A DNA stretch of 64,000 bases from Bradyrhizobiaceae bacterium PARB1 (GTDB lineage: Bacteria > Pseudomonadota > Alphaproteobacteria > Rhizobiales > Xanthobacteraceae). This document shows, in pieces, positions 1 to 36,959 of this stretch. A program made the position numbers and the translations under genes. The DNA lies in NCBI GenBank assembly GCA_002256345.1, contig NKIY01000004.1, forward strand, positions 327,876 through 391,875, in the 5' to 3' direction. Position 1 is the stretch's first letter. Every line of letters begins with the position of its first letter. Under the pieces are notes generated by a model. That model was not told where the DNA came from and ran no database searches. It was given only the letters and a program-made list of their open reading frames with translations.

Positions 1-25
1 CACCGGTCGGTCTGTCGGCTGTGAT

Positions 26-310
26 CTATTCGGGACGGCGCCTTAGCCTGACGCCCTCGACGTATTCTTCGTCACCGAAGAAGAATTCGATTCCTTCCTT
101 TTCTAGCGCCGCCCGGAGCGCCTTGTGGACGTCCCGCCTGCGCCGGTCGGGCCGGCCTTCCGTTTCAGTCTCGATCTTGGAAATCGTGCGCCGCGACACG
201 TTAGGCGTCAGCGTCTCGCCGAGCTGGGTCTGGGAGAGGTTCAACAGGCCCCGTGCGGCTCGGATCATGGCAGCGGATATCAGGAGTTCGGGTATTTCGG
301 CGTCGGTCAT
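26..310 (-). CDS. XRE-type helix-turn-helix regulator
   Basis: This is a 94-residue protein with a single helix-turn-helix of the Cro/CI (XRE) type at about residues 15-48 (RGLLNLSQTQLGETL followed by VSRRTISKIE). The C-terminal half is charged and resembles the small phage and island regulators that follow this fold. It is transcribed away from the operon beginning at 430, and a 9-bp inverted repeat lies in the shared upstream region at 349-375. The likely role is repressor of itself and of the divergent operon, as in other XRE-controlled mobile elements. The family call is firm; the targets are inferred. Confidence 0.8.
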   Translation of the reverse strand: MTDAEIPELLISAAMIRAARGLLNLSQTQLGETLTPNVSRRTISKIETETEGRPDRRRRDVHKALRAALEKEGIEFFFGDEEYVEGVRLRRRPE

Positions 311-348
311 CCCCGAGTTCTATGCAGGAAAATTAACGTTAGCAAGCC

Positions 349-375
349 TTATTCTTCTCATAATGGGAAGAATAA
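349..375. promoter_or_regulatory. Inverted repeat, candidate operator
   Basis: Two perfect 9-bp arms (TTATTCTTC at 349-357 and GAAGAATAA at 367-375) are separated by 9 bases in the divergent region between the XRE regulator and the HNH-headed operon. The segment is AT-rich in an otherwise GC-rich region. Its position and symmetry fit an operator bound by the regulator at 26-310. Binding has not been shown. Confidence 0.5.
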
Positions 376-429
376 TTGACTTGGCGTCATCGCGATGGCA
401 TCTTGTTCCCAACGAAGAGGGAGTTTGCG

Positions 430-753
430 ATGACCTATAGCGAGTACATCCAGAGCACTGCATGGCGGACCAGTCCGGTCCGGCTGCGCGAATTCGAGGC
501 GGCGGGTTTCGCTTGCCGTCTCTGCCCGGCGGCGGCTTCCGACGGCGCCACGCTGGAATCGCATCACCGGACCTACGACCGTCTTGGCAACGAGAGCGAC
601 GGCGACCTCACCTCGCTGTGCTCGGACTGCCACCGCGCGGTGACGTCCTTCCTGCGGGCCCGCCGCTACGCGCTGCTGCAGCCGCTGCGCGCCGACGTGA
701 AGACCATCCGCATCGACGCGCCGCTGTTCGACCCGACCCGCGAGGTGGCGTGA
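430..753 (+). CDS. HNH-type endonuclease-like protein
   Basis: This is a 107-residue protein with the standard zinc-finger HNH layout: C29 and C32, then SHHRTYDRLGNE (H45, H46), then LCSDCH (C64, C67, H68). Such small stand-alone HNH proteins are common in phages and integrative elements, where they nick or cut DNA. I chose the ATG at 430 because a GAGGGAG ribosome-binding site lies just upstream. An earlier in-frame ATG at 376 falls next to the candidate operator and has no good site. The stop codon overlaps the start of the next gene (TGATG), so the two are translationally coupled. It heads the operon that runs to 5401. Confidence 0.75.
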   Translation: MTYSEYIQSTAWRTSPVRLREFEAAGFACRLCPAAASDGATLESHHRTYDRLGNESDGDLTSLCSDCHRAVTSFLRARRYALLQPLRADVKTIRIDAPLFDPTREVA

Positions 754-1328
754 TGGAAGCCGAGAAGATCACCATGCGCCTGACCGGGACGCGCCCGCTG
801 CTGATGCATTCGTCGCGCCTTGCGGACCCGCTCGATCCGATCCGGGCGCGCCTCACGAAGGTGACGACGAAGAGGGCGAAGACGCTGGCGGACCATCTCG
901 AAATCTCGCGGATCGAATGGCATGGCGGCCTGTGGATCTTCGAAGGTCGCCCGTGCATCCCGGCGGAAGCGCTGTTGAGCACCTTCAAGTCCGCCGCACG
1001 GGCGCGCAACAAGGGCCAGGAGGCAACCGCCGGCATCCAGATCGGCCGCCCGGCCATCCTGGAATACGACGGGCCGCGCGACCTCGACGAGCTCGGCGCC
1101 GACGAACGCTTCGTGTTCCGGACGACCGTCAGGGTCGGACGCGCCCGGACCATCCGCACGCGCGCCCGCTTCAACGACTGGGCCGTCGAATTCGACGTGA
1201 TGTATCTGCCCACCCTGCTGAACCGCAGCGAGGTGCTCGACACCTTCATGACCGCCGGCTTCACGCGGGGGATCGGCGACTGGCGGCCAACCTTCGGCAC
1301 CTACCTGGCCGAGGAGCGCAAGGAATGA
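753..1328 (+). CDS. Phage/ICE-type protein with GIGDWRP tail
   Basis: This 191-residue protein starts at the ATG overlapping the HNH stop codon. It opens with a TGTRPLLMHSSRLADPLDP segment and ends with a glycine-rich GIGDWRPTFGTY motif. I recall similar unnamed proteins in phages and integrative elements, but I cannot name a family. The alternating beta-strand pattern and terminal G-x-G-x-x-R-P loop are reminiscent of RAMP-like folds, which is a weak impression only. The reading frame stays open upstream to 462, but that part is the shifted reading of the HNH gene. The stop codon is followed within 7 bases by an array of NGGCN pentamers, so any link between this protein and that DNA is worth testing. 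Confidence 0.6.
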   Translation: MEAEKITMRLTGTRPLLMHSSRLADPLDPIRARLTKVTTKRAKTLADHLEISRIEWHGGLWIFEGRPCIPAEALLSTFKSAARARNKGQEATAGIQIGRPAILEYDGPRDLDELGADERFVFRTTVRVGRARTIRTRARFNDWAVEFDVMYLPTLLNRSEVLDTFMTAGFTRGIGDWRPTFGTYLAEERKE

Positions 1329-1334
1329 GTTTCA

Positions 1335-1389
1335 AGGCTTGGCGGGGCGTGGCCCGGCGAGGCAGGGCACGGCCCGGCTTGGCGAGGCA
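1335..1389 (+). repeat. Eleven phased NGGCN pentamers
   Basis: GGC recurs exactly every 5 bases for eleven units: AGGCT, TGGCG, GGGCG, TGGCC, CGGCG, AGGCA, GGGCA, CGGCC, CGGCT, TGGCG, AGGCA. The two bases between successive GGC triplets vary freely (TT, GG, GT, CC, GA, AG, AC, CC, TT, GA, AT). The order is therefore not explained by simple recent duplication of one unit; the GGC spacing itself looks conserved. The array starts 6 bases after the stop codon of the gene ending at 1328 and is followed directly by a strong hairpin. Its function is unknown. Confidence 0.85.
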
Positions 1390-1390
1390 T

Positions 1391-1418
1391 GGGGAGCGTC
1401 CACTCTAGGACGCTCCCC
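1391..1418 (+). terminator. Strong hairpin, terminator-like
   Basis: A perfect 11-bp stem (GGGGAGCGTCC at 1391-1401, GGACGCTCCCC at 1408-1418) has a 6-base loop. No run of T follows, so intrinsic termination is doubtful; it may protect or process the transcript. A second small hairpin (CGGTCT/AGACCG) lies at 1450-1464, before the next gene. Confidence 0.5.
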
Positions 1419-1500
1419 ACCCACCGAATTCCGAACCTAACCAACTTCGCGGTCTGGAAGACCGCAACGTGCCATTCGGCGCGAACGGGAGAACCATGTC

Positions 1501-2043
1501 ATGCGTACCGAAACGAAGAAGACGAAGCCGACCCGCGGCACCGCCCGTGCCCTGGAGATGTCCAAACCGCGTTCGATCGCGGCGCATTTCCTCGGCGAGA
1601 CGCCGGCGGATTGGGAGCACGCACATCTGCTGTGGCGCTCCGTGCCGGCGCACCGCTTCCATCGCGATCACCGCGCCGCCGTTAACGAGTGCATGCGGCG
1701 CACGTCGTCCATCATGGACGCATGGCGCCTGGCCATCGCCGGCGATGCCGCGAGCGCCATCGGCCTGGCTCTGAGCATGGGCATTCCCCAGCAGGTCACG
1801 ATCCGCACCGACCTGACGATGACGGTGCTGCTGCACAACGCGCTGCGCGGCAGCGCCGGCGCCACGCTGGTGCTCTCCAACCTGATCCGCCGGATGCCGA
1901 TCGACCGCGCCGACCGCCGCCGCCTGGCGACATCCTGGCTGGCCCACAACTTTCGTCAGGCCTGGCCGGAGCTCGACGAACGCCTCCGCCTCGTCAAGGC
2001 CGGCACGCATCGTCGCGGCGATGACGGGGAGGACCTGTCGTGA
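1501..2043 (+). CDS. Unrecognised 180-aa protein
   Basis: I do not recognise this protein. It is mostly alpha-helical and basic, has no signal peptide or membrane segment, and begins with a lysine/threonine-rich tail (MRTETKKTKPTRG). The ATG at 1501 has a GGGAG site about 9 bases upstream. The stop codon overlaps the GTG start of the metallophosphoesterase at 2040, which argues for coupled translation and a shared task. Shifted frames in the same interval lack these signals. It may be a DNA-associated accessory protein of the element; this is only a guess from context. Confidence 0.55.
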   Translation: MRTETKKTKPTRGTARALEMSKPRSIAAHFLGETPADWEHAHLLWRSVPAHRFHRDHRAAVNECMRRTSSIMDAWRLAIAGDAASAIGLALSMGIPQQVTIRTDLTMTVLLHNALRGSAGATLVLSNLIRRMPIDRADRRRLATSWLAHNFRQAWPELDERLRLVKAGTHRRGDDGEDLS

Positions 2044-2813
2044 GGATCCAGGTCATGTCCGACCTCCACGTCGAGTTCTACGGCACCGCGGCGATGCCAC
2101 GGACGGTCGATGGCGCCGACTTCGTCGTGGTCGCCGGCGACACCTGCAAGGGCCTGGTCAGGGCCGTGGAGACGCTGCGCGACGCCTTCCCCCGCGTCGA
2201 GGTGGCGACCGTCGCCGGAAACCACGAATACTACGGGTGCGAGCTCGCCGCCGAGCTCGAGGCCGGTCGCGTCCGCGCGCGCCAGTTGGGGGTGCACCTG
2301 CTGTCCGACGACGCCGTGACGATCGGCCGTGCGCGCGTCGTGGGCTGCACCCTCTGGACCGACTACTGCCTGTTCGGCGCCGATCTGCGCGAACTCGCGA
2401 TGCACACGGCGCGCGACGCAATGATGGACCACAAGCGGATCGCGTGGCGCCGGAACCCCTGGGCCAGGTTCCGGCCGGAGGAGGCGGCGGCGCTGCATCT
2501 GCGGTCCCGCAACTTCCTGGAGACCGAGCTTGCGAAGAGCCACCCCGGGCCCGTCGTCGTGGTGTCCCATCACGGCATGACGCTGGAAGCCGTTTCGCCG
2601 CTGAACCAGCGCTCTCTTCTGAGCGCCGCATACGCTTCGGAGCTGCTGCCGCTGGTCGACCGTCACCGTCCCGCGGCTTGGGTCTCGGGCCACACCCATC
2701 ACTCCATGAATCTGCGGCGCGGCGGGACGAGGTTGGTCAGCAACGGGCGCGGCTATCCCGGCGAGAACGCCGGTTTCGATCCCGCCTTCGTCATGGAGAT
2801 CGCCGATGACTGA
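2040..2813 (+). CDS. Calcineurin-like metallophosphoesterase
   Basis: This 257-residue protein carries all the metal-binding blocks of the calcineurin-like family: D8-x-H10 (SDLH), GD at 33-34 (VAGD), GNHE at 60-63, SHH at 176-178 and GHTHH at 217-221. The enzymes hydrolyse phosphomonoesters or phosphodiesters, including nucleic acids, with two metal ions; the substrate cannot be told from sequence. The GTG start overlaps the stop of the gene before it, and the 3' end overlaps a micropeptide gene by 8 bases. With an HNH protein in the same operon, a nucleic-acid substrate is plausible but unproven. Confidence 0.85.
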   Translation: MRIQVMSDLHVEFYGTAAMPRTVDGADFVVVAGDTCKGLVRAVETLRDAFPRVEVATVAGNHEYYGCELAAELEAGRVRARQLGVHLLSDDAVTIGRARVVGCTLWTDYCLFGADLRELAMHTARDAMMDHKRIAWRRNPWARFRPEEAAALHLRSRNFLETELAKSHPGPVVVVSHHGMTLEAVSPLNQRSLLSAAYASELLPLVDRHRPAAWVSGHTHHSMNLRRGGTRLVSNGRGYPGENAGFDPAFVMEIADD

Positions 2814-2865
2814 GCCAGGACACCGCCTCGCCATACTCCTCACGTTCCAGGTGCATCCCCCCTAG
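2806..2865 (+). CDS. Micropeptide 1 (…RLAI…QVHPP)
   Basis: This short reading frame encodes MTEPGHRLAILLTFQVHPP, 19 residues. Its ATG overlaps the end of the metallophosphoesterase and has a GGAG site at 2795-2798, 7 bases upstream. The last 44 bases match the end of micropeptide 2 at 34 of 44 positions, and both keep the frame, the RLAI block, the QVHPP ending and the TAG stop. Conservation of both ends around a divergent middle argues that the peptide, not just the DNA, is maintained. The function is unknown; it could be a leader peptide, a substrate or regulator of the protease that follows, or a secreted signal. Confidence 0.55.
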   Translation: MTEPGHRLAILLTFQVHPP

Positions 2866-2916
2866 CGGGCCGGCGCCGCCAACCCGACCACCATCACCGA
2901 CACCATGGAGAATCCG

Positions 2917-2982
2917 ATGCCCGACCCCAAGCCCGCGATCCGCCTCGCCATAACCCCGAATCCGCAGGTGCATCCACCCTAG
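2917..2982 (+). CDS. Micropeptide 2 (…RLAI…QVHPP)
   Basis: This 21-residue reading frame ends RLAITPNPQVHPP and is preceded by a proline-rich stretch (MPDPKPAI). A GGAG at 2907-2910 sits 6 bases before the ATG at 2917, matching the layout of micropeptide 1, where CATGGAGA also lies just upstream of the start. An in-frame ATG at 2905 would add four residues. The protease gene begins 31 bases after its stop. Because both copies carry the same site, RLAI block and QVHPP-stop ending, they look like a tandem duplication under coding constraint. Confidence 0.55.
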   Translation: MPDPKPAIRLAITPNPQVHPP

Positions 2983-3013
2983 CGACCATGACCTTCGACA
3001 CAGGAACATCCAC

Positions 3014-5401
3014 GTGACCAAGTACACGAAGACGAAGACGAAGAAGCGCCGCGCAGCGCTCGCGCGCAACGCCGGGCCGAGCCGCCCGGCATCGGTGGCG
3101 ACCGCCTCGCCGGCCGCCATGGGCCCGCTCGAGGCGGAGACGGACCGCCTCGCCGTCGAGGTATCGCGGACCTATCGGAAGGCCATGGGCGCGGCCCAGG
3201 CGCGTCGCGTCGAACAGCTCGCCCCGGCCGTTCCATCGCCGGTCAAGGGATTCGTCGGACTGGCGGCGCTCCGCCGGCGCACGCGCGACGACGATGACGA
3301 CCTGGACGTCGCCGTCGCCACGAAGCACCCGAAGGTGGAGCCGGTCACGTCCGTCGAGATCGCCGCCAGGCTGATGCTGGCCAGGCAGGTCGACGCGCTG
3401 GGCGGGCTCGCGGTAGCGGTCCGGAGCGGATCTCCAGTGGTCGTGGTCGACGTGCCGGATGCGGCGATGCTCGACCGTCTCGGGCGCGTGTGGGAGAGCG
3501 TCCTGATGCCCGCCACCGCGGTGTGCGTGAAGTTTCTCGGCAGCGGCGCGCTCCGCCACGGCCAGTACGATGCCCTCTACGTCGTGGCCAAGACCCCGAC
3601 GAAGCCCAAGGATTCGGACGACACGCGCCGGTTGACGCTCGACGCCCTCGGTCTCGCTTTGCCGGTTATTGCCTTCTCGCCCTCCGCGGAGACGCATCTT
3701 CCGGCGGAGCTGCTCCTCGCATGCACCCACCGGATCGCGATTCCGGCGCTGGACGCGCGCACCATCGTCAGAACGATCGAGATCGTGACGGGACGCACGT
3801 GCCGCGCGCGGCTCGACGACGTCACCGTCGCGCGGACGGGACTCGGCGAGATCGCCATCGCCGTGCGCTTCGACCGGACGCCCGCCGAGTGCGTCGCCGG
3901 CCTGCGACGCCTCGCCGAGGCCAAGGCGGTCAAGCGCGGTTCGCGCGACCTGACGCTCGACGAACTGCACGGAATGGACTCCGCCGTGGCGTGGGCCCGT
4001 TCGGCGATCGTCGATCTGAATTCCTGGAGGCGTGGCGACGTCGGGAGCTGGTCCGCGGTGTCGTCGAAAGTCCTGCTGAACGGGCCGCCGGGCACCGGAA
4101 AGACCACTTTCGCCGCCGTTTTCGCACGGGCCGCCGGACTTCCGATCGTCACGGCTTCGCTCGCCGGCTGGCAGTCGCAGGGGCACCTCGGCGACCTCTT
4201 GAAGGCCATGCGGACCGACTTCGAGAAGGCGAGAAACCTCGCAAATTCAGCCTCAGGGTGCGTCATGTTCATCGACGAGGTCGATGCTTTCGCCGACAGA
4301 AGCTCGATCCGGCATGACCACGCGGACTACGTGATCCAGGTAGTCTCGGGCTTTCTCGAACTGACCGACGGTCTCGCCGGAAACGAGAATCTCTTTCTGG
4401 TCGCGGCCTGCAACGATGTCCGTCGCTGCGATCCCGCGTTGGTCCGCCCGGGACGGTTCAATCCGGTGATCGAGATCGGTCTGCCGAACCTCGCGGACCT
4501 GGAGAAGATGTTCAGGGTCCGCCTGGGTCCGGACCTCGTCGACGCCGATCTCCGCGAAATCTGCGAACGGACGCTCGGCGGCTCGGGCGCCGAGGTGGAG
4601 CGCATCGTCAACGACGCCCGCCGTCTCGCCAGGCACGATGGCGCCCGTTCGATCGTCATGCACGATCTCCTGAGCATCGTGAAGGGCGAGGACGCCCGGC
4701 CGGAGGCGCTGCGGCGGCGCACCGCCATCCACGAAGCCGGCCACATCGTCGTCGATGTGTTGTTCAACGGCGGCGCCGGGATCCACGCCAGCATCTCGCC
4801 GTCGCGCGGGACCGGCGGGCGGGTCGTCCGCACCGAGGCGACGGAAACGGCCGGCACCTACGAAGACTACGCGCGCCGCCTCCAGGTCTTGCTGGCGGGA
4901 CGGACGGCGGAGATCCTCATGTGCGGTGATTGCGGTCACGGTTCCGGCGGCGTCGCCGGCTCCGACATGGCAGTCGCGGCCAGCATGGCGGCGGCGATGT
5001 CGGGCTCGGTCGGGCTCTCCGGACCGCGACCGCTGCTCTTCCTCGCCCCGCGCGAGAACACTCCCGAGCTGCTGTCCTATCCCGAGGTCCGCCTGGCGGC
5101 GAACGAGGAGTTGACCAAGGCGGCCGACGCCTGCCGGGCGCTCCTGCAGCGTCACCGCGGCGCCCTGGAGGCCGTGACGGAGGTGCTGCTGGCCGAGGGC
5201 AGGATCGACGGCGAAGGCGTGTGCCGGCTGCTCGCGACGGCCAATCCCCCGGGCGGCGCCGCCGGAGGGGCCGCGACCAGGCTCCCCGGGCGTGCCGACG
5301 GGGCGGGCGGCCCAAGGATTCGAAATACACCGACACGACGCCGGAAGTCTCCCCCGTCGCGCGAGCGCCGCGCCGGGACCGCTCCCGGAAAGCCCTTGTG
5401 A
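3014..5401 (+). CDS. Soluble FtsH-like AAA+/M41 metalloprotease
   Basis: This 795-residue protein joins an AAA+ ATPase to an M41 zinc peptidase in the FtsH order. Visible sites are Walker A GPPGTGKT at 357-364, Walker B FIDE with D421 and E422, a second region of homology (NDVRRCDPALVRPGRF), the zinc motif HEAGH at 573-577 and a likely third ligand D651 in GSDMAVAAS. Unlike FtsH it has no N-terminal membrane segments. Instead about 350 residues of basic and mixed sequence precede the ATPase, with an acidic DDDDDLD patch near residue 95. It should unfold and degrade cytosolic proteins with ATP. The start is a GTG with AGGA about 10 bases upstream. It is the last gene of the operon, directly before the excisionase and integrase, so its target may be a phage or element protein. 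Confidence 0.85.
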   Translation: MTKYTKTKTKKRRAALARNAGPSRPASVATASPAAMGPLEAETDRLAVEVSRTYRKAMGAAQARRVEQLAPAVPSPVKGFVGLAALRRRTRDDDDDLDVAVATKHPKVEPVTSVEIAARLMLARQVDALGGLAVAVRSGSPVVVVDVPDAAMLDRLGRVWESVLMPATAVCVKFLGSGALRHGQYDALYVVAKTPTKPKDSDDTRRLTLDALGLALPVIAFSPSAETHLPAELLLACTHRIAIPALDARTIVRTIEIVTGRTCRARLDDVTVARTGLGEIAIAVRFDRTPAECVAGLRRLAEAKAVKRGSRDLTLDELHGMDSAVAWARSAIVDLNSWRRGDVGSWSAVSSKVLLNGPPGTGKTTFAAVFARAAGLPIVTASLAGWQSQGHLGDLLKAMRTDFEKARNLANSASGCVMFIDEVDAFADRSSIRHDHADYVIQVVSGFLELTDGLAGNENLFLVAACNDVRRCDPALVRPGRFNPVIEIGLPNLADLEKMFRVRLGPDLVDADLREICERTLGGSGAEVERIVNDARRLARHDGARSIVMHDLLSIVKGEDARPEALRRRTAIHEAGHIVVDVLFNGGAGIHASISPSRGTGGRVVRTEATETAGTYEDYARRLQVLLAGRTAEILMCGDCGHGSGGVAGSDMAVAASMAAAMSGSVGLSGPRPLLFLAPRENTPELLSYPEVRLAANEELTKAADACRALLQRHRGALEAVTEVLLAEGRIDGEGVCRLLATANPPGGAAGGAATRLPGRADGAGGPRIRNTPTRRRKSPPSRERRAGTAPGKPL

Positions 5402-5470
5402 CAAGCATGTCACAAGGATTCGCAGCTTGCCTCTGGTTCCATTTCTCAAGGATTCGATTTCAAGGATTCG
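5313..5470 (+). repeat. Four CAAGGATTCG direct repeats
   Basis: The decamer CAAGGATTCG occurs at 5313-5322, 5413-5422, 5447-5456 and 5461-5470, that is, at the end of the protease gene and in the leader of the excisionase-like gene. The spacing closes from 100 to 34 to 14 bases. Short direct repeats next to xis/int genes commonly serve as excisionase or integrase arm sites, which is the most likely reading here. Confidence 0.6.
5395..5416. promoter_or_regulatory. 9-bp palindrome across the protease stop codon
   Basis: CTTGTGACA and TGTCACAAG form perfect arms around the 4-base spacer AGCA. The element overlaps the TGA stop (5399-5401) of the protease and sits about 60 bases before the excisionase-like gene. 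It is probably an operator or a transcript hairpin between the two modules; there is no T run. Confidence 0.5.
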
Positions 5471-5475
5471 ATGAC

Positions 5476-5937
5476 ATGACCCGCCCAACGGGCGCCGCCG
5501 ACGCCCCGAATTCCGGCACCGAGATGACCTCCGTCCTGCGCGCCGGATTTGGGAACCGGCCCGCGGTGCCGATGGCAGATCTGAGTAAGATGTTGATGTT
5601 GGACGAGAAAACGTTGCTCCGCCACGTGCGCTCTGGTAGGTTGCCCTACCGGGCGATGGGAACCGGACGGCGACGGATCAGGCGGTACTTCACAATGGAT
5701 GACGTGGTTCAGTTCTTCAAGAATCTGGGGAACCCGGCGGCTGACCCGGTTCCGCCGCGTCGTGCCCGTACGCCGTGGACGTCGGACGCGCCCGGTTTCG
5801 TTGGCGGTGTCGAGCGCCCCACCCGTCGCTCCGCCGAAGCCGTCCGCACAGCGCGCGTGTCCGCCAGGAGGGAGACCGCTGCGGACGCTTCCGGCACGTC
5901 CGGCGCGTGCCCAAAGTCGACGGGAGGCGTCGTATGA
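5476..5937 (+). CDS. Excisionase-like helix-turn-helix protein
   Basis: This is a 153-residue protein. Residues about 35-85 (VPMADLSKMLMLDEKTLLRHV, then SGRLPYRAMGTGRRRIRRYF and DDVVQFF) have the winged helix-turn-helix pattern of AlpA/Xis-type proteins that bend DNA and set recombination direction. The tail is long, basic and low in complexity. The ATG at 5476 follows the CAAGGATTCG repeats; an in-frame ATG at 5407 would overlap the palindrome. Its last codons overlap the integrase start (ATG at 5934), the usual xis-int coupling. The upstream repeats are good candidates for its binding sites. Confidence 0.7.
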   Translation: MTRPTGAADAPNSGTEMTSVLRAGFGNRPAVPMADLSKMLMLDEKTLLRHVRSGRLPYRAMGTGRRRIRRYFTMDDVVQFFKNLGNPAADPVPPRRARTPWTSDAPGFVGGVERPTRRSAEAVRTARVSARRETAADASGTSGACPKSTGGVV

Positions 5938-7157
5938 CCGTCTACATGCATAAGAATTCGCCCTATTGGCAGATCTGCTTCCAGTTGAGCAAGCGCAAGT
6001 TCTCCTACTCCAGCGAGACGACCTGTCACGCCACGGCCGTGGAACTGGAGGACGAGTACCGCGCACAGGCGAAGCGGGACCTGGCCCTCGAGATGGCGGC
6101 GGGGCCACGCGTCACCTTCAACCAGGCGATGCACAAGTACTGGAAGCTCAAGGTGTTCGACCCCCGTCCGAAGGAGCTGAAGACCGACGAAAAGATCAAT
6201 CGCGAGATCGCCAAGTTCGACGCGCTCACCTCTGCCGGCAAGCAGGTCGGCCTCGACACCCTCTGCGCCGACGTCGATACCACGCGCATGCTGGAGATCC
6301 GCGAAGAACTGAAATCGGCCACGGCCAACACGGCGACTGGACGGCTCAAGCCGAGCGCCATCAACCGCCAGCTCGAGCTGATCTTCTGCGTCCTGAACTT
6401 CGCGAGGGACCATATGTCCACGCCGCTGCCGAAGCGGCCCCGGATGAAGGAAATCAAGTTGGTGGAGGACGACCGCGACCGGATCATCGACTACGACGAC
6501 GAGACGGCGATCTGCGAGCATCTCGACGAGGATTTCCAGGCCGCGTTCGTGCTGGAACTCGAGACCGCGATCCGGAGCGGCGACGTCATCGGGCTGCAAT
6601 GGTCGCAGGTCCGGCTGAAGCAGCGGCACATCCTCGCCCACCGCAAGTCCAAGGGGCGCAAAATCTACAAGGTCTGGCTGAACGACCGCGCAGTCGCGAT
6701 CCTCGAACAGATGAAGGGTCTCCACCCGACCCACGTCTTCACCCGGGTCGTCGAGACGACGGCGATCGTCGACGGCGAGCCGGTCAAGGTCGCGACGCGG
6801 ATTCCCTACAAGAAGTCGCATTTCGGGACGCGTATGAAGAAGGCCTTCGAGGCCGCGAAGGTCGACGACCTCACCTTCCACGACCTGCGGCGCACCGCGG
6901 GCACGCGGTACTATCTGGCGACCAAGGACTACGAAGCCACCCGGCAGTTCCTGGGGCACTCGTCCGTCGAGGTCACCAAACGCTACATCAAGATCGCGCT
7001 CGAGAACGTCATCGAAGGCGTTTTCAACATGGAGAGGGACCGCGCCGGCCGCGGCTGGCGGTTGAAGCCTTCGCGCAAGGCGGCGACCTCCGCGACCGTC
7101 GAGAAAATCGTCGCCTTGGCTCAGAGCGGCCGCACCCGCAAAGCGGTCGGAGCTTGA
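5934..7157 (+). CDS. Tyrosine recombinase (integrase 1)
   Basis: This 407-residue phage-type integrase has a complete active site: R214 (ETAIRSGD), a lysine in HRKSKGRK near 240, HDLRR with H316 and R319, H342 in LGHSS and the nucleophile Y351 in TKRYIKI. A core-binding helical domain lies at about 60-170. The start at 5934 overlaps the excisionase stop. No tRNA gene lies next to it, so its own attachment site is unknown. It may mark an older or separate element inside the island, carrying the operon 430-5401 as cargo. Confidence 0.9.
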   Translation: MTVYMHKNSPYWQICFQLSKRKFSYSSETTCHATAVELEDEYRAQAKRDLALEMAAGPRVTFNQAMHKYWKLKVFDPRPKELKTDEKINREIAKFDALTSAGKQVGLDTLCADVDTTRMLEIREELKSATANTATGRLKPSAINRQLELIFCVLNFARDHMSTPLPKRPRMKEIKLVEDDRDRIIDYDDETAICEHLDEDFQAAFVLELETAIRSGDVIGLQWSQVRLKQRHILAHRKSKGRKIYKVWLNDRAVAILEQMKGLHPTHVFTRVVETTAIVDGEPVKVATRIPYKKSHFGTRMKKAFEAAKVDDLTFHDLRRTAGTRYYLATKDYEATRQFLGHSSVEVTKRYIKIALENVIEGVFNMERDRAGRGWRLKPSRKAATSATVEKIVALAQSGRTRKAVGA

Positions 7158-7317
7158 CAGAACGTCCGTGGCGGCATCGGTCGTGGGCGCCCCTTGTCGA
7201 AACGCGGCTCCACGACCGATTGCCCCGCTCCGCAGCCGGAGTTCTAGGCGATCGTCGTGGATCGGAGGCGATCCGCGACCACGCCCGTGGATCGCACTGC
7301 GGCGACGGACGCCGGCG

Positions 7318-7343
7318 GCCACCGACACGTCGGTTGGCTTTTT
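7318..7343 (+). terminator. Intrinsic terminator after integrase 1
   Basis: An 8-bp stem with one bulged T (GCCACCGA at 7318-7325, TCGGTTGGC at 7330-7338) and a CACG loop is followed by five T. It lies 160 bases past the integrase stop, before the converging mer genes. Confidence 0.65.
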
Positions 7344-7364
7344 CTGCAAGCCGGCGGCTTCCAT

Positions 7365-7595
7365 TTACGATTGGCTGCAGCACGGCCCGGCGCACCGGTC
7401 GCCTCCGCCCTCGGCCTGTATCGGCGGACAGGGAACCGAGCCGTAGGAGCAAAACACGCAACAATCGCCAGGCTTCGGCTTCAGCATGATGCCGCAGCCG
7501 GTGCATTCGTAGAAGAATTGACAGGCATCGGTCGGCATCGTCTCCGTCTTGGCGACGGCGCACTGGGGACAAGTGATGATCGATTCGAAAAGCAT
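7365..7595 (-). CDS. Small Cys-rich protein of mer loci
   Basis: This 76-residue protein is rich in cysteine: CPQC near the start, CTGCG in the middle, then GDCCVFCSYGSVPCPPIQ and a final CAGPCC. I recall the GDCCVFCSYG signature from short unnamed proteins that accompany merR-merT-merP in proteobacteria. It probably binds metal, most likely mercury, though this is inferred. It begins 4 bases after the merP stop and so ends the mer transcript. The DNA after it reaches integrase 1 with no merA reductase. Confidence 0.7.
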   Translation of the reverse strand: MLFESIITCPQCAVAKTETMPTDACQFFYECTGCGIMLKPKPGDCCVFCSYGSVPCPPIQAEGGGDRCAGPCCSQS

Positions 7596-7598
7596 CCG

Positions 7599-7871
7599 TC
7601 AGCCCCGGGGCGCTGACGGATGACCCGCCTTGGCGGTCGCCGACATCAGTCCGTTCACGACGGCCACTGTGTCGCGGTAGACGACCGTCGCCGTCTTTTC
7701 CTTGAAGGACGCCACGACCCGGGCGACGCCCGGTATGGCTTCGCGGCTGCCTTTGACGATCGACGGACATGCGGCGCAATACATGTTGTCCACCGCGCGG
7801 TCCGCGGCCATTGCAGCCGACGAGGCCAGGATGCCTCCTGTGAGAACCGCGCGAAGAAGAAGTTTGCTCAT
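7599..7871 (-). CDS. merP: Periplasmic mercury-binding protein MerP
   Basis: This 90-residue protein has a signal peptide (LLLRAVLTGGILASSAAMA) and a heavy-metal-associated domain. The metal site is the M30-Y-C32-A-A-C35 motif, and the remainder follows the MerP pattern (VARVVASFKEKTATVVY and the final AGHPS). MerP captures Hg(II) in the periplasm and passes it to MerT. The usual G before M-x-C is N here. Its merT partner appears frameshifted and no merA is present, so the transport chain may no longer confer resistance. Confidence 0.85.
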   Translation of the reverse strand: MSKLLLRAVLTGGILASSAAMAADRAVDNMYCAACPSIVKGSREAIPGVARVVASFKEKTATVVYRDTVAVVNGLMSATAKAGHPSAPRG

Positions 7872-7880
7872 TGGGGACCT

Positions 7881-8259
7881 TTAACGATGGAGGAAGAGCG
7901 GTGCGATGAGGTCGAAGCCGAGCTCGGCGGCGACCAGGAGGGTCGCCACGACGAGACCCGTCCTGACGAAGCGATCCGACAGCGGGCGGGCACAGGATCC
8001 GGCGGCTGCGCATGACGAACGCCCCAGGCAGGACAGCCGATAGCCGTAACTCAGGACCGCCAGCGTCGCCGCGACGATCCAGGGCCGATAGGCGGCGAGC
8101 CGGGTGAGGTTCCCTATCCTCACGCCGCTGACGCTGAGACCGACGAGGGCTAGGGATGGAACAAGAGGAAGCCGCGACCGCCCCCCCACAGCCCGCCGAC
8201 CGCCACGCCCCCTGCCGTAGCCGCTCGCCGTCTATTCGATGCGTCTGTTGGACTTTCAT
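7881..8259 (-). pseudogene. merT: merT, mercury transporter, frameshifted
   Basis: The C-terminal two thirds read as MerT: LALVGLSVSGVRIGNLTRLAAYRP, a membrane helix, a cysteine pair region (CLGRSSC) and a last hydrophobic segment. An in-frame start for this part (8189) would cut off the first membrane helix. The missing N-terminus (ATG at 8259, ending GGAVAASSC) is present in another frame, and the switch falls near 8155-8171, where the ASSCC motif of MerT should be. A one-base change therefore breaks the gene. A sequencing error is the alternative. The first gene after the mer operator, it would otherwise be the inner-membrane Hg(II) importer. Confidence 0.7.
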
Positions 8260-8274
8260 GACGGTCAGGATGCA

Positions 8275-8293
8275 TCCTGTAGCGGCTACAGGA
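8275..8293. promoter_or_regulatory. MerR operator in the divergent mer promoter
   Basis: TCCTGTAG-CGG-CTACAGGA is a perfect 8-bp dyad with a 3-base centre lying between merR and merT. Read on the minus strand, TTGCTC lies just upstream as a -35 overlapping the dyad, and the dyad occupies the long spacer, as in known MerR-controlled promoters. The MerR dimer should bind here, repress without Hg(II) and untwist the promoter with it. Confidence 0.8.
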
Positions 8294-8307
8294 GCAAGGA
8301 CCATTCG

Positions 8308-8748
8308 ATGGGCAAAAACACGATTTCGCGAGCCGGAAGGATATCGATCGGCGCGCTCTCGAGACAAGGCGGCGTGAAAATCGAGACCATCCGCTACTAT
8401 GAGCGCATCGGGATGCTGCCTCCGCCGCCGCGGACGGCGGGCGGCCGACGGTTGTACGGTCGAGCCGAGGAACGGACGCTGGCCTTCATCCGGCGCTCGC
8501 GCGATCTGGGGTTCACGCTCGAAGAAATTCGCGCGCTGCTCGCGTTGGGGGCGCCGGAACGCGCGCCCTGTGTCGACGTGCACAAGATCGCCGGCGCCCA
8601 TCTGGCGAAGATCCGCAACAAGCTCTCCGATCTAGTCAAGCTCGAAGCCATCCTGGCGGAGACGGTCGCCCGATGTTCCGACGGCGAAGCGCCCGGCTGT
8701 CCGGTGCTCGATGTCCTCGACGCCGGGCGTCGGAGCCAAGGCGCCTGA
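8308..8748 (+). CDS. merR: Mercury-responsive regulator MerR
   Basis: This 146-residue MerR-family activator has an N-terminal winged helix-turn-helix (ISIGALSRQGGVKIETIRYYERIG) and a dimerisation helix. The metal-sensing cysteines are C88, C123 and C131, in the places of the three Hg(II) ligands of classical MerR. The C123-C131 loop is one residue shorter than in Tn21 MerR, so a different thiophilic metal cannot be excluded. The merT-merP context favours mercury. I chose the ATG at 8308; an upstream in-frame ATG at 8239 would run through the operator. Confidence 0.85.
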   Translation: MGKNTISRAGRISIGALSRQGGVKIETIRYYERIGMLPPPPRTAGGRRLYGRAEERTLAFIRRSRDLGFTLEEIRALLALGAPERAPCVDVHKIAGAHLAKIRNKLSDLVKLEAILAETVARCSDGEAPGCPVLDVLDAGRRSQGA

Positions 8749-8887
8749 CCCGGGTCGGTGCCGATGGGATGCCCTGTCGGACGCGCCCGCGCCGGGCGGA
8801 CCGTGCCCCGACCCGGAGGCACGGCGCACGGACCGGCCGGCGATCCGCGCCGAAGCAACCGCGCCGGACGCCGAGTGACCGCCGATC

Positions 8888-8952
8888 ACGATCGTGACGC
8901 GCCGCCACGATCGTGATCGCGCGTTACGATCGTGACGATACGTTACGATTTT
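8888..8952 (+). repeat. 19-bp phased iterons (ACGATCGTGA)
   Basis: The decamer ACGATCGTGA recurs at 8888, 8907 and 8926, exactly 19 bases apart, and a degenerate fourth copy (ACGATTTT) starts in phase at 8945. Each unit contains the palindrome ACGATCGT. A further related half-site (ATCGTGACG) lies at 9015-9023. Such phased iterons are typical of plasmid replication or partition regions and of sites that nucleate protein arrays. The next gene downstream encodes a KfrA-like DNA-binding protein. Confidence 0.8.
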
Positions 8953-9017
8953 CGGCCGGGTTGCGTCTGCTTTGCCTCTACTGAATCTATACTTGCGACG
9001 GCCGTCCGGCGAAAATC

Positions 9018-9032
9018 GTGACGCTGCGTCAC
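9018..9032. promoter_or_regulatory. Palindrome GTGACGC-T-GCGTCAC
   Basis: This perfect 7-bp dyad overlaps the related iteron half-site ATCGTGACG, 375 bases before the KfrA-like gene. A CGGGAGATTTC-type direct repeat occurs right after it (9034-9050) and again at 9289-9306, so the leader has several layers of repeated sites. Confidence 0.5.
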
Positions 9033-9307
9033 TACGGGAGATTTCCGGGACCTACGGTCCGCCTGCGTGGGTCTGTTTCCCTTAAATTCCGCTAAAGTTC
9101 GTGGAACGTTCACGCCATAGCTTCGAACCGGGTCCCGGCTAACCCATTGATCGGAAACCCAATAACGACGGGCCTCCACAAGGACTCGCACCCTCCGGAA
9201 AGGCGCCCGTGAATCTGCTTTGATTACAGGTTTGCGTTTGTCGCAGAGGCCTTGTTTTGTAGGGTTTCCGAGCCCTCCTTCGAACATTTCGGGAGATTTC
9301 GGGAGCC

Positions 9308-9324
9308 CGTAACGAAGCGTTACG
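9308..9324. promoter_or_regulatory. Palindrome CGTAACG-AAG-CGTTACG
   Basis: This perfect 7-bp dyad lies 9 bases before TTGACG (9333-9338), a possible -35 of the KfrA-like gene at 9393. CGTTACGA also occurs within the iterons. It is a likely operator for autoregulation. Confidence 0.5.
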
Positions 9325-9392
9325 CTAGTTTGTTGACGGGTTGGAAAGCCGGCTTCCACTAGCTTCGTACCGGCGACATTCAGGATCCGGTC

Positions 9393-10484
9393 ATGGCGAA
9401 AAACGATCTGCGAGCACGGGTCTATCAGGCGGCCGACGAATTGTTCATCGAGAGCGGTTCTCTCCAAAGCATCGGTCAGCGCGCGGTCCGTGAACGGGCC
9501 AAGGGAGGTTCAAACGATGTAGGGCCGCTCCTCGATGATTGGCGGGCTTCGCGGGAAGCGATGCTGGGCTCAAGACCAGCCGCACTCGCCGCGATCGCCG
9601 AGGAGTTCGCCGGTCGCCTGTGGCTTATGGCGCAGTTAATGTCCGGCGGATCCGGAGACAGTGCCCGTCCTCTTCCGGCTCAGCCTCTCCCCGCCGCTCC
9701 CCCGCCAACGACGCGACCCGCCCAGCGGACCCGGCCTGCGCCGACCAAGACAGGATCTGCGGCTCCCACTGCGGAACCGACCGGTCGACTTCGCGGTGCG
9801 GGAAATGTCGGATTGTTCAGCGAGCTTCCCCGACCGGAGCGTCCGGCGAAAGCTCCCAAGCCCAGTGCCAAGCGCGTGGCGACGGTCAGAAACTTCAAAA
9901 TCCGCGAGGCGGGTCAGAAGCTTTTCGTCCTTGTTGATCCGAAGCCACCCCTGCAGCCGGGCGTCCTTACCGAGGCCGACTGGACCGGCGCACGGGACGA
10001 GAAGCTGGCGGAGGCGGTCGCGACCATACTGCGCAAGAACGGCGATCGGCTGCGGGCCTTCGACATTCACAAGAGGCTGCCGAAAAACCTCCGCCCCGGT
10101 ACCCGGGACCATGCCCAGAGGGATTTAAAGTTAGGGTTGTTCGGGTCGAGAATCGAATGGGCGAACGGCGGCTGGTTCTGGTTCAAGGGCGAACCCCTCC
10201 CCAAGCATCGCATGACTCTTGGCACCCCGGCGGCCGAGAAACGCCGACAAGGGGACGTGCTGTGGTGGCGTATAGCGCACACGATCGCGGGGCTCGGTCG
10301 CGACTTCACCCAGGCTGAGATCGAGGACGCGTGCGGCGACGAAATCAGGAACTTCGGGGACACGTGGTTGCGGCTCCGGCTCACGCGCATGCGGGAACGG
10401 TCAGAACCGTTCATTCAGCTCGTCTCGGCCGGCATCATGCGCTGGACCGGACTCGATCCGGCCGAGATCGTAGTAGAGGACTGA
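9393..10484 (+). CDS. KfrA-like DNA-binding protein
   Basis: This is a 363-residue protein. Residues about 1-60 (RARVYQAADELFIESGS through RERAKGGSNDVGPLLDDWRASREAM) match the pattern of KfrA-type N-terminal DNA-binding domains of plasmids. A proline/alanine-rich linker covers about 90-165. The C-terminal half (FKIREAGQKLFVLVDP and later ILRKNGDRLRAFDIHKRLP) suggests one or two further winged-helix domains; I cannot name them. The family is known for autoregulation and plasmid stability. The phased iterons and palindromes upstream are the obvious candidate targets. No replication initiator or parA is visible nearby, so a replication role is uncertain. Confidence 0.6.
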   Translation: MAKNDLRARVYQAADELFIESGSLQSIGQRAVRERAKGGSNDVGPLLDDWRASREAMLGSRPAALAAIAEEFAGRLWLMAQLMSGGSGDSARPLPAQPLPAAPPPTTRPAQRTRPAPTKTGSAAPTAEPTGRLRGAGNVGLFSELPRPERPAKAPKPSAKRVATVRNFKIREAGQKLFVLVDPKPPLQPGVLTEADWTGARDEKLAEAVATILRKNGDRLRAFDIHKRLPKNLRPGTRDHAQRDLKLGLFGSRIEWANGGWFWFKGEPLPKHRMTLGTPAAEKRRQGDVLWWRIAHTIAGLGRDFTQAEIEDACGDEIRNFGDTWLRLRLTRMRERSEPFIQLVSAGIMRWTGLDPAEIVVED

Positions 10485-10564
10485 AAATCCCGCCAGCCGT
10501 CGGCGGCGCCCGAGCGGACGTAGCTCGAGCGGACCGAAGCGGTTCGCTGGCCGATCGGCCGTAG

Positions 10565-11055
10565 GCACTCGTCGAGTCCTACGACGACATCTTCCGTCTC
10601 GTCGGCCCTTCGGCGGGAGCGCCGGGCTTGCCCGCCGTCAACGACGGCTGGCGCGACCTGCTGGAGCGCGCGTGCGCACGCATCCGCGCGTTTGTCCGCA
10701 CGCACGGCGGCTCGCTTCGGGTGACTGAGATCAGCGAGAAGTACGGCTCCCTGCGCGTCCGCTGGGAGGGATCTATGTCGCCCCGCCGCGCGAGTAGAAG
10801 AGGCCGTCGATCTGGCGGAGGCGCGCGGCGCGACGACCTGCGAGGTCTGCGGCGAACCCGGCGTCCTCCGCGCCGGCGAATGGCTCGCGACACGCTGCGA
10901 CGCGCACGCACCCGGCAGAAGTCGAGCAAGGAATCGAACATCCCTACGTCGAGCGGAGGTTCGTCGACGGGCACTGGCACGCCGTCTTTCGGTTCTACGA
11001 CCGCACCTCCGACCGCTTCGTCGAAGCGGATCTCCCCAGTAGCCAAGTGGAGTGA
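10565..11055 (+). pseudogene. Decayed gene in three reading frames
   Basis: One protein can be pieced together from three frames. The first runs from about 10565 to 10775 (SYDDIFRLVGP, then NDGWRDLLERACARIRAF and EISEKYGSLRVRW). The second runs from about 10788 to 10920 (VEEAVDLAEARGATTCEVCGEP, with a CxxC and a later C-D-A-H). The third runs from about 10918 to 11055 (HPYVERRFVDGHWHAVFRFYD). The first two pieces fit a family of unnamed proteins with a GW-x-DL segment, a K-x-G-x-L-R segment and a zinc-like CxxC. No start codon is seen for the first piece. At least two frameshifts imply a dead gene; miscalled bases are less likely for two events. Confidence 0.6.
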
Positions 11056-11057
11056 CC

Positions 11058-11240
11058 ATGGCACGCTTCAGATGTTCCGCCTGCACACGCTCCGGCGAGT
11101 GCGGATACGACGGCCGCGGCCAAGCGTGTCCGCTTTGCGGTTCGCCGGACGTGGTGTTCGCGGTGGCGATCGAAGAACTGCCCGACGAGGTGCTCGCGGC
11201 TCTTGCTCCGCTGGAGCATTCCGGCGAAGGCATCGAGTAG
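11058..11240 (+). CDS. Small zinc-ribbon protein
   Basis: This 60-residue protein has two cysteine pairs, CSAC near residue 6 and CPLC near residue 25, as in short zinc ribbons. The tail is acidic (IEELPDEVLAALAPLEHSGEG). A GTG two codons earlier is an alternative start. It follows the decayed gene by 3 bases. No function can be assigned. Confidence 0.55.
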   Translation: MARFRCSACTRSGECGYDGRGQACPLCGSPDVVFAVAIEELPDEVLAALAPLEHSGEGIE

Positions 11241-11410
11241 CAGTCGAGAATTTCCGATCCTACCGACGGACATACATCACGAACTTGCCGGCAATGCGCA
11301 TCGCTTCGACGATAGCCGAGCGGGGGAAAAGTCGCCCGCGCCGAGGCTTCGCTGTGGACTCCTGCAGCCTGGGTTGGGATCGTCGCCGAATGCAACCCGG
11401 AGAATCGGTG

Positions 11411-11614
11411 ATGGCTAAATCGACGAGCAATACTGGAAAGCCCTGGACACCTGCGGAAGTGAAGCAGCTCAAGCAGGAAGCTGCCGGCAACACTCCCACC
11501 AGGGTCATGGGACTGAAGCACAAGCGCACAGAAGCGGCGATACGTGCGAAAGCCCAGGTCGAGGGTATTTCGCTAAAGCCGACCAACCAGAGTCCGTACG
11601 GGACAAAGAAGTAG
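11411..11614 (+). CDS. Small conserved rhizobial protein, SANT/Myb-like
   Basis: This is a 67-residue protein. MAKSTSNTGKPWTPAEVKQL resembles the start of a Myb/SANT helix, followed by GNTPTRVMGLKHKRTEAAIRAKA and a KPTNQSPYGTKK tail. I recall near-identical short proteins as widespread unnamed genes in Rhizobiales. It is probably a DNA-binding protein. The ATG at 11411 has GGAG about 10 bases upstream. A longer open frame upstream is the reading of the decayed gene and should not be joined to it. Confidence 0.75.
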   Translation: MAKSTSNTGKPWTPAEVKQLKQEAAGNTPTRVMGLKHKRTEAAIRAKAQVEGISLKPTNQSPYGTKK

Positions 11615-11644
11615 CCGGTCGGCCATCTGCAGTCACGATCCTGG

Positions 11645-12514
11645 ATGAACGTTCCAAAACGACACCACTTCGTTCCCGAAATGCTGCAAAAGCGCTTCGT
11701 CGATGAGGCGGGCCTTCTGCACTTCTACAACAAGCGAACGCCGGAGAAGGGCGTTCAGTCCACCAGGCCGGGCAATCTACACGTCAAAACGCATCTTTAC
11801 TCGAAGATCCTCTCGGACGGGACCAAGGACGTCGCGCTCGAGCTTCGTTACGCCGCGCTTGAAGGCGTCGCCGAGCCGATATTTGCTGAACTTGTGAACG
11901 CAGCCCTTCGTGGCCGCACACCGCGCATCCCGTCGACGACCAGGGAGGTCATCGACCACTTCGCCTACGAACAGATGCGGCGCGTGCCGGAATTCCACGA
12001 ACAGATAATGCCGACCAGCGACTCGGAGCGGCAGATCCGACTGGCGCTCGACGAATACGAACGAAGGTTCAGGAAAGTCCCGGCCGAACAGCGGGAGAAC
12101 ACGCTTCGCCCCTCCTCGATCGAGGAGTTCCGTCAGAACGCGCGCGTCGGCGCACTGTCCCGCCATTCGCCCAGGGTCATGCGCGCCCTTGCCTCGAAAT
12201 CGCTCGTCATCGCACGCACCCGAACGAAACTCAGCTTCATGATCGGCAGCCGCCCCGTGGTGCGCTCGCGCGGCAACTTGCCGGACCCGGCGACCGAAGT
12301 CTGGTTGCCGATCGGCGCGAACATCGCCCTGCTGTATATCGGCGAGCGGTGGGAGAGCCCACCCATCTACGACGTCCCAGACCACACGGTCCGTCGTCTG
12401 AACGATACGATCGCGGCGCAGAGCGCAATATTCGCCGGGCGATCGGGCAAACTCATTCTGAGCGTGATCGGCCGTCTGATCCTTACGACCTCAAATGCAA
12501 TGCCGAGGACGTAG
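11645..12514 (+). CDS. DUF4238 family protein
   Basis: This 289-residue protein opens with the PKRHHFVPEMLQKRF signature of the DUF4238 family and has LHFYNKRT soon after. The molecular function of the family is not settled. Members often occur as single genes in accessory regions and near defence genes. It runs toward the Qat operon, ending 138 bases from the qatD stop. It may be separate cargo, since known Qat systems do not need it. Confidence 0.75.
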   Translation: MNVPKRHHFVPEMLQKRFVDEAGLLHFYNKRTPEKGVQSTRPGNLHVKTHLYSKILSDGTKDVALELRYAALEGVAEPIFAELVNAALRGRTPRIPSTTREVIDHFAYEQMRRVPEFHEQIMPTSDSERQIRLALDEYERRFRKVPAEQRENTLRPSSIEEFRQNARVGALSRHSPRVMRALASKSLVIARTRTKLSFMIGSRPVVRSRGNLPDPATEVWLPIGANIALLYIGERWESPPIYDVPDHTVRRLNDTIAAQSAIFAGRSGKLILSVIGRLILTTSNAMPRT

Positions 12515-36812: not shown

Positions 36813-36959
36813 GCCATCCGTTGATGCCTGCGAAACGCAGCGTCTGTCCAGTCACCCCGGCACAAATCGATGCTGCAACTGCAAACAACGGCGCCTTCAA
36901 GACGCCGGCTTTGTCCGGTGATATAGTCTGGCATCGCTCCTGAAGTTGCGAGGCCAGTC

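Follow-up and report, generated by a model that had tools for sequence, protein, structure and literature searches.

An array of GGC-centered pentamers in the DNA analyzed here, a 64-kb stretch (hereafter, the window), is very probably the guide region of the vrRNA of a VIPR system that uses a fixed guide, aimed at a recurring protein motif, that of the He_PIG domain. VIPR is a RAMP-based RNA-guided DNA-recognition system, and its protein component, Vipr, is a phage-borne ancestral RAMP (2026 preprint, PMC13142463). According to the same preprint, vrRNAs consist of 9-16 YNNGG units followed by a structured tail, and vrRNA copurifies with the Vipr protein of SUSP1; the code consists of NN pairs that read double-stranded DNA and leave one base unread from one pair to the next, and the NN letters are described as hypervariable (PMC13142463). 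In VIPR types III-V, enzymes are predicted (for example, nucleases or helicases), and types III and V are enriched in defense islands (PMC13142463). This was the only paper about VIPR among the literature matches listed. VIPR as a kind has only just been described; what sets this locus apart is the conserved, apparently fixed guide.

Anatomy and rarity of the pentamer array

The array follows directly the TGA stop codon of the vipr gene (positions 1326-1328) and contains 11 GGC triplets, which start at 1336, 1341 and so on to 1386, at a step of exactly 5 bases (span 1336-1388). The run of eleven slip-free pentamers after a stop codon, reported in an initial sequence-only reading of this DNA, is thus exact. 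Parsed as YNNGG, the array comprises 12 units directly downstream of vipr (Table 1), within the range of about 9-16 units that characterizes vrRNAs encoded beside vipr. In the rest of the window, 5-step runs of GGC or GCC do not exceed three copies, and in the 6.95-Mb genome, the array is the sole run of six or more (the six matches obtained are overlapping frames of the same array). Among 300 order-3 Markov control sequences of the window's length, the longest run never exceeded five copies, and a run of five was found in 2 of the 300.

The strong hairpin that had been noticed after the array is real, with a 12-bp stem. The fold of positions 1326-1445 beats all of 200 shuffled sequences (z -3.45), and compensatory changes preserve the pairing in three close relatives, including G319 and G017, which are 85-86% identical; the locus has the structured 3' tail of VIPR. 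Among the 20 loci of the clade analyzed below, three (G087, G348 and G426) have a tail whose fold is weak or unclear.

Table 1. Features of the VIPR locus and its surroundings (window positions)
Feature	Position	Strand	Evidence and remarks
XRE-type HTH gene, divergent from the vipr operon	26..310	-	Pfam HTH_3, E 9e-6
Small HNH-like gene, likely vipr accessory (vap)	430..753	+	PHROG HNH endonuclease, best E 2.8e-6
vipr, single-domain RAMP protein, 191 aa	753..1328	+	phrog_4652, E 1.4e-42; PDB 36pp_D (SUSP1 Vipr), E 4e-23
vrRNA guide region (very probable)	1333..1392	+	12 YNNGG units, NN = AA TT GG GT CC GA AG AC CC TT GA AT; kept in relatives
vrRNA 3' tail (very probable), 12-bp hairpin	1390..1419	+	arms 1390-1401 / 1408-1419; compensatory changes in relatives
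Conserved downstream gene	1501..2043	+	homologs in 14/22 related stretches, some stretches short
Metallophosphoesterase gene	2040..2813	+	Pfam Metallophos, E 2.8e-13; homologs in 12/22 related stretches

The family name was obtained through a sequence search of the PDB. A search of Rfam gave no match above chance; a consensus scan of window positions 1-3000 showed neither a sigma-70-type promoter nor a terminator at the array; blastn with an array against phages returned nothing; and the literature matches for GGC pentamers, judged by titles and the beginnings of abstracts, appeared to be unrelated. The earlier remark that pentamer runs of this kind have no agreed function is nonetheless outdated, the function being given by the 2026 VIPR preprint (PMC13142463).

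The Vipr protein and its gene neighborhood

Membership of the protein encoded directly upstream of the array in the Vipr family is near certain. Besides the PDB match (Table 1), a profile match to Vipr (E 2e-42) and a Csm-like structural model identify it as a RAMP homolog. The AlphaFold model has a pLDDT of 96.6, and its top Foldseek matches (PDB, April 2026) are Csm complex subunits (E 2.9e-6, TM 0.5); the best 50 Foldseek rows span E values of 2.9e-6 to 3.6e-4 and TM-scores of about 0.4-0.6, with entries named Csm3 appearing from E 4.4e-5. The C-terminal G-x-G-D-W-R-P-x-F-G of Vipr can be read as the RAMP glycine loop.

The stop codon of the HNH-like gene overlaps the vipr start codon (TGATG), and an HNH-like gene lies 5' of vipr in all 22 related stretches, consistent with the accessory gene of VIPR loci; the Pfam HNH match of its product (E 0.0012) is under the curated cut-off. 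The HNH-like protein would act together with Vipr. Of the 22 related stretches searched, 15 contain a homolog of the divergently transcribed XRE-type gene, and the product of the conserved gene downstream of the array matches no PHROGs or Pfam family at E 0.001. PADLOC detected no cas family among six proteins of the locus, and the pentamer array is the only tandem array found in window positions 1-5000; the combination of a CRISPR array and several cas genes that marks class 1 CRISPR-Cas was not found at the locus.

The surroundings of the VIPR genes show several further features. The nearby metallophosphoesterase matches the candidate defense family PDC-S10, and a gene downstream of the VIPR genes (3014-5401) encodes a fusion of an AAA ATPase and a Peptidase M41 domain (FtsH-like), with IetA-like PADLOC matches. 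A tandem repeat with units of about 19 bp is located at 8875-8949. The genome G013 has genes in common with the window 1-12514 region (from about -1600 to 12514), most of them 96-100% identical, and integrase genes are found at corresponding places in G000, G013 and G009. This region seems to be an island moving between strains.

Association of arrays with Vipr homologs in viral contigs

Scanning of viral contigs for eight GGC triplets at 5-base steps yielded at least 120 stretches, and a control scan with the reversed triplet yielded 82 (examined as 77 + 2 + 3). A Vipr homolog was detected in 84 of the 120 array loci listed versus 3 of the 82 reversed-motif stretches. Among the loci listed, the homolog was present in 45 of the 60 with arrays more than 2 kb from both ends, array and homolog shared the strand in 201 of 207 arrays, and array loci extended down to 39% GC. 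Many contigs carry several arrays, and arrays of at least six units lie on a single strand in 119 of the 120 listed loci. The number of 84 loci was obtained with a cleaned profile; a first homology iteration, with 96 loci, had drifted into translated arrays and was discarded. A search of viral contigs with the single query P0001 detected no relative.

This co-occurrence, which the sequence-only reading had proposed as a check, agrees with its suggestion that the upstream gene encodes a protein that uses the array, the product being Vipr. Its two further proposals, namely, that the 5-base step itself is selected and that a protein or RNA reads 5-base units, are also supported: a protein-RNA machine reading 5-base units, that is, Vipr with its vrRNA, accounts for the step, and its alternative of half a helical turn need not be invoked.

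A guide conserved across the clade

Vipr homologs were detected in 24 of the 391 genomes sampled from the family to which the window belongs. The clade set consisted of 20 distinct loci, with Vipr proteins 40-100% identical to that of the window; guides were aligned from the sequence 3' of each vipr stop codon, and three were re-registered by hand. Across the 20 loci, mean pairwise identity was 0.74 in the NN columns versus 0.76 in the GGY columns, with core NN columns reaching 1.0. The columns 2-12 bases 5' of the array had identities of 0.21-0.32 (7-20 sequences each); the column adjoining the array, which is part of a unit, had 0.64, and those further 5', with at most five sequences each, ranged from 0.17 to 1.0. 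GG at position 3, GT at position 4 and CC at position 9 are present in all 20 guides, and CC at position 5 in 19 of the 20. Some GGY units have decayed (to GAT, GCA, CGC or GCC) with the NN kept.

The two bases between the triplets, initially perceived as almost random, do vary within the array but are conserved across relatives. The hypervariability of NN, described for the SUSP1 and P. fulva clades and taken here as typical, not defining, was not observed in this clade. Because NN is called hypervariable in the preprint (PMC13142463), the conserved guide represents a departure. The guide of this clade appears to be kept by selection, fixed instead of hypervariable.

Some loci deviate from the common register. 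The vrRNAs of G017 (locus L209) and G387 (L227) each have one extra base, in both cases after NN position 8, and the vrRNA of G412 has lost one base one unit earlier; these one-base shifts are perhaps a tolerated slip. The order-level relative G652 has two vipr copies (L233 and L234; 44 and 46% identity) followed by arrays that differ and have letters unlike those of the family's fixed guide. The GGC-rich stretches of a family-level and an order-level relative (L216 in G039 and L215 in G132) are long and irregular, with frequent breaks in the 5-base step, and perhaps represent another array architecture.

The decoded guide and the He_PIG motif

Guides were decoded with the published rule of a 1-nt skip, in antisense, such that the wobble base of each codon is the one skipped. 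Read in this way, the guide of the window spells (I/M)-S-(N/K)-G-V-L-S-G-T-P-(N/K)-(F/L), and those of its relatives spell LSTGV(I/M)SGTPT, YTGV(I/M)(R/S)GTPT, S(F/L)(D/E)GT(I/M)SGTPT and VS(N/K)G(I/M)LSGTP(D/E). We take the decoded motif to be the signature of He_PIG Ig-like domains. The form G-[VITL]-[IL]-S-G-T-P is spelled in antisense by 19 of the 20 clade guides, with G348 breaking it, and in sense by none of the 20; it occurs in none of 250 other distinct arrays and in 8 of 200,000 random guides, all these counts being post hoc, as the motif was picked after the guides had been seen.

The changes among the guides are conservative with respect to the encoded amino acids in antisense (P 0.002, or 0.001 for positions 3-9), versus P 0.5 in sense. 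An earlier version of the substitution test, in which position 2 was masked in five guides, G017 and G412 were omitted and position 3 of G461 was wrong, had given P 0.048. At position 6, the exchange between GA and CT connects the two serine codon families in antisense, whereas in sense, it sets Asp/Glu against Leu.

Searching viral contigs for the array core produced five stretches on four contigs. One of these, L365, is a distant array (about 6029-6049, minus strand) that has six consecutive NN in common with the core of the fixed guide and reads L(I/M)SGTP in antisense; it is possibly a second He_PIG guide. The core matches other than L365 are inside other GGC-rich arrays, look like chance occurrences and were not retained.

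Distribution of matching DNA

A pattern of ten NN from the G300 guide matches viral contigs exactly at 34 sites, and at none when its order is reversed, and all 34 of the corresponding windows match Pfam He_PIG. Ten target ORFs, mostly from GC-rich contigs, were taken from these 34 sites; at E 0.001, seven of the ten had matches to tail-protein families, with no individual stretch passing in two of the seven. When four target ORFs were compared with named phages, two had actinophage relatives, one had a single uncultured match and one had none, and no alphaproteobacterial phage target was found among the four. The nine-NN core common to the guides of the window and G319 has 35 sites in 34 bacterial and archaeal loci, about 15 of which are expected by chance (a rough estimate that assumes uniform letters), and no site in viral contigs; a He_PIG match was found in 25 of the 32 windows scanned around these core sites. 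All 12 NN of the window guide have no exact match in the viral or genome contig collections. Matches to many unrelated genes are to be expected of any guide that encodes a widespread motif.

A target search in the window and in 20-144 kb around vipr in seven genomes detected no convincing site, with scores at background level. Window positions 36796-36824 agree with a degenerate consensus in 17 of 20 letters and have a close counterpart near vipr in G013, with 18 of 20; similar scores arise elsewhere by chance. Tail proteins of phrog_476 were found in none of 15 clade genomes, and one He_PIG repeat of G438, when compared with phages, matched nothing.

Alternative explanations

The locus might be an ordinary VIPR in which the He_PIG reading is coincidental and the real target is another conserved sequence, for example, one spelled in sense as V-G-V-P-(E/L)-(I/S)-T-P-V. 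The lack of an exact target of the window guide in the collections, where three target patterns were searched, leaves some room for this explanation, but we consider it unlikely: the motif is rare among random guides and absent from the other natural arrays compared, the guide changes are conservative in antisense only, the swap at position 6 stays within serine in antisense but replaces Asp/Glu with Leu in sense, and He_PIG domains contain the sites that were found (all 34 in one set, 25 of 32 in the other). Even less credence is due to the view that the guide letters are alike through recent spread of the loci and not through selection. An identical Vipr is indeed present in G009, and neighboring genes are near-identical in G013, but 17 of the 20 loci encode a Vipr of only 40-64% identity, and most columns just 5' of the array are near chance identity compared with up to 1.0 in the core NN; we regard this explanation as very improbable. 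Repeat slippage, a replication iteron or a protein-binding DNA array devoid of guide function, for which the exact 5-base step could be adduced, is hardly credible, given that the units differ at NN, that arrays are linked to Vipr homologs on the sense strand (201 of 207), that the hairpin tail shows compensatory changes in three close relatives and that Vipr has a RAMP fold.

The guide could also act not on an invader but on the host itself, regulating a gene (for an adhesin, for example) that contains He_PIG repeats. He_PIG proteins are encoded in 86 of the 391 family genomes, and G438 and G423, in which no Vipr was found, have repeat proteins with the motif that match the core of the clade guides. 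However, 20 of the 24 vipr carriers, the genome of the window among them, have no He_PIG at E 0.001. Since that genome and nine further carriers showed no such domain at this threshold, a resident gene is probably not targeted. In three of the four carriers with He_PIG (G426, G453 and G462, the fourth being G387), the strict motif is absent from the 18 kb surrounding the domain, and agreement with the guide of the carrier itself peaks at 11/14, 15/20 and 15/20 letters; both 15/20 matches are tied by a second site, and some of the best sites are diverged He_PIG motifs. No resident target was seen in the parts of carrier genomes searched, and regulation of a host gene is, in our assessment, improbable. 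Exclusion of He_PIG by VIPR was examined as well: the domain is present in 4 of the 24 carriers versus 82 of the 367 other genomes, with no clear depletion in carriers. The numbers are small, and the carrier data fit a non-resident target.

Proposed mechanism and relation to known systems

Under the preferred reading, that of a fixed-guide VIPR aimed at the He_PIG motif, the array and the hairpin would be expressed together, with the hairpin as the vrRNA tail. Vipr subunits would bind along the GGY/NN RNA and coat it, each covering one 5-nt unit, such that each NN pair is presented to double-stranded DNA; if the skip rule holds in this clade, one target base would be skipped between pairs. The complex would recognize the coding DNA of He_PIG domains, the presumed true target, when phages or other elements enter, irrespective of the codons they use. 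The recognized DNA would then be blocked, or cut by the adjacent HNH-like protein, the probable effector.

The Vipr fold, the glycine-rich loop and the coating of guide RNA by subunits are features in common with class 1 CRISPR-Cas, with its Csm3/Cas7 backbone; in contrast, the locus in the window has a 5-nt instead of a 6-nt unit, a single small domain and no CRISPR array or cas genes found at the locus. TldR differs from Vipr in belonging to another protein family and in using a contiguous guide, and TIGR-Tas is not a RAMP system. Points of likeness are a guide regulating one kind of gene, for the phage RNA-guided transcription factors TldR (PMC13418256), and tandem RNA-guide arrays in phages, for TIGR-Tas (PMC12045711). 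The closest resemblance is to VIPR, represented by SUSP1, the type II system of P. fulva and types III-V (PMC13142463), which has a Vipr RAMP, a GGY/NN vrRNA, a structured 3' tail and a minimal locus with an accessory gene; the single vrRNA of the window locus is as known for some types. Unlike in the described systems, NN in the window's clade is conserved across genera, and the decoded target is a protein-domain motif.

These properties raise the prospect of germline-encoded, broad-spectrum RNA-guided immunity, in which one fixed guide, selected across genera, reads G-V-I-S-G-T-P of He_PIG at the DNA level, a proposal to which we give equal weight for and against. Because the 1-nt skip ignores wobble bases, a single guide would read an amino-acid motif in DNA and so cover many unrelated phages. 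If the fixed-guide reading is true, it would provide a directly testable target, and this guide would be an innate counterpart to adaptive guides, recognizing a protein motif instead of a strain-specific sequence, and the usefulness of a code that skips every third base would be explained.
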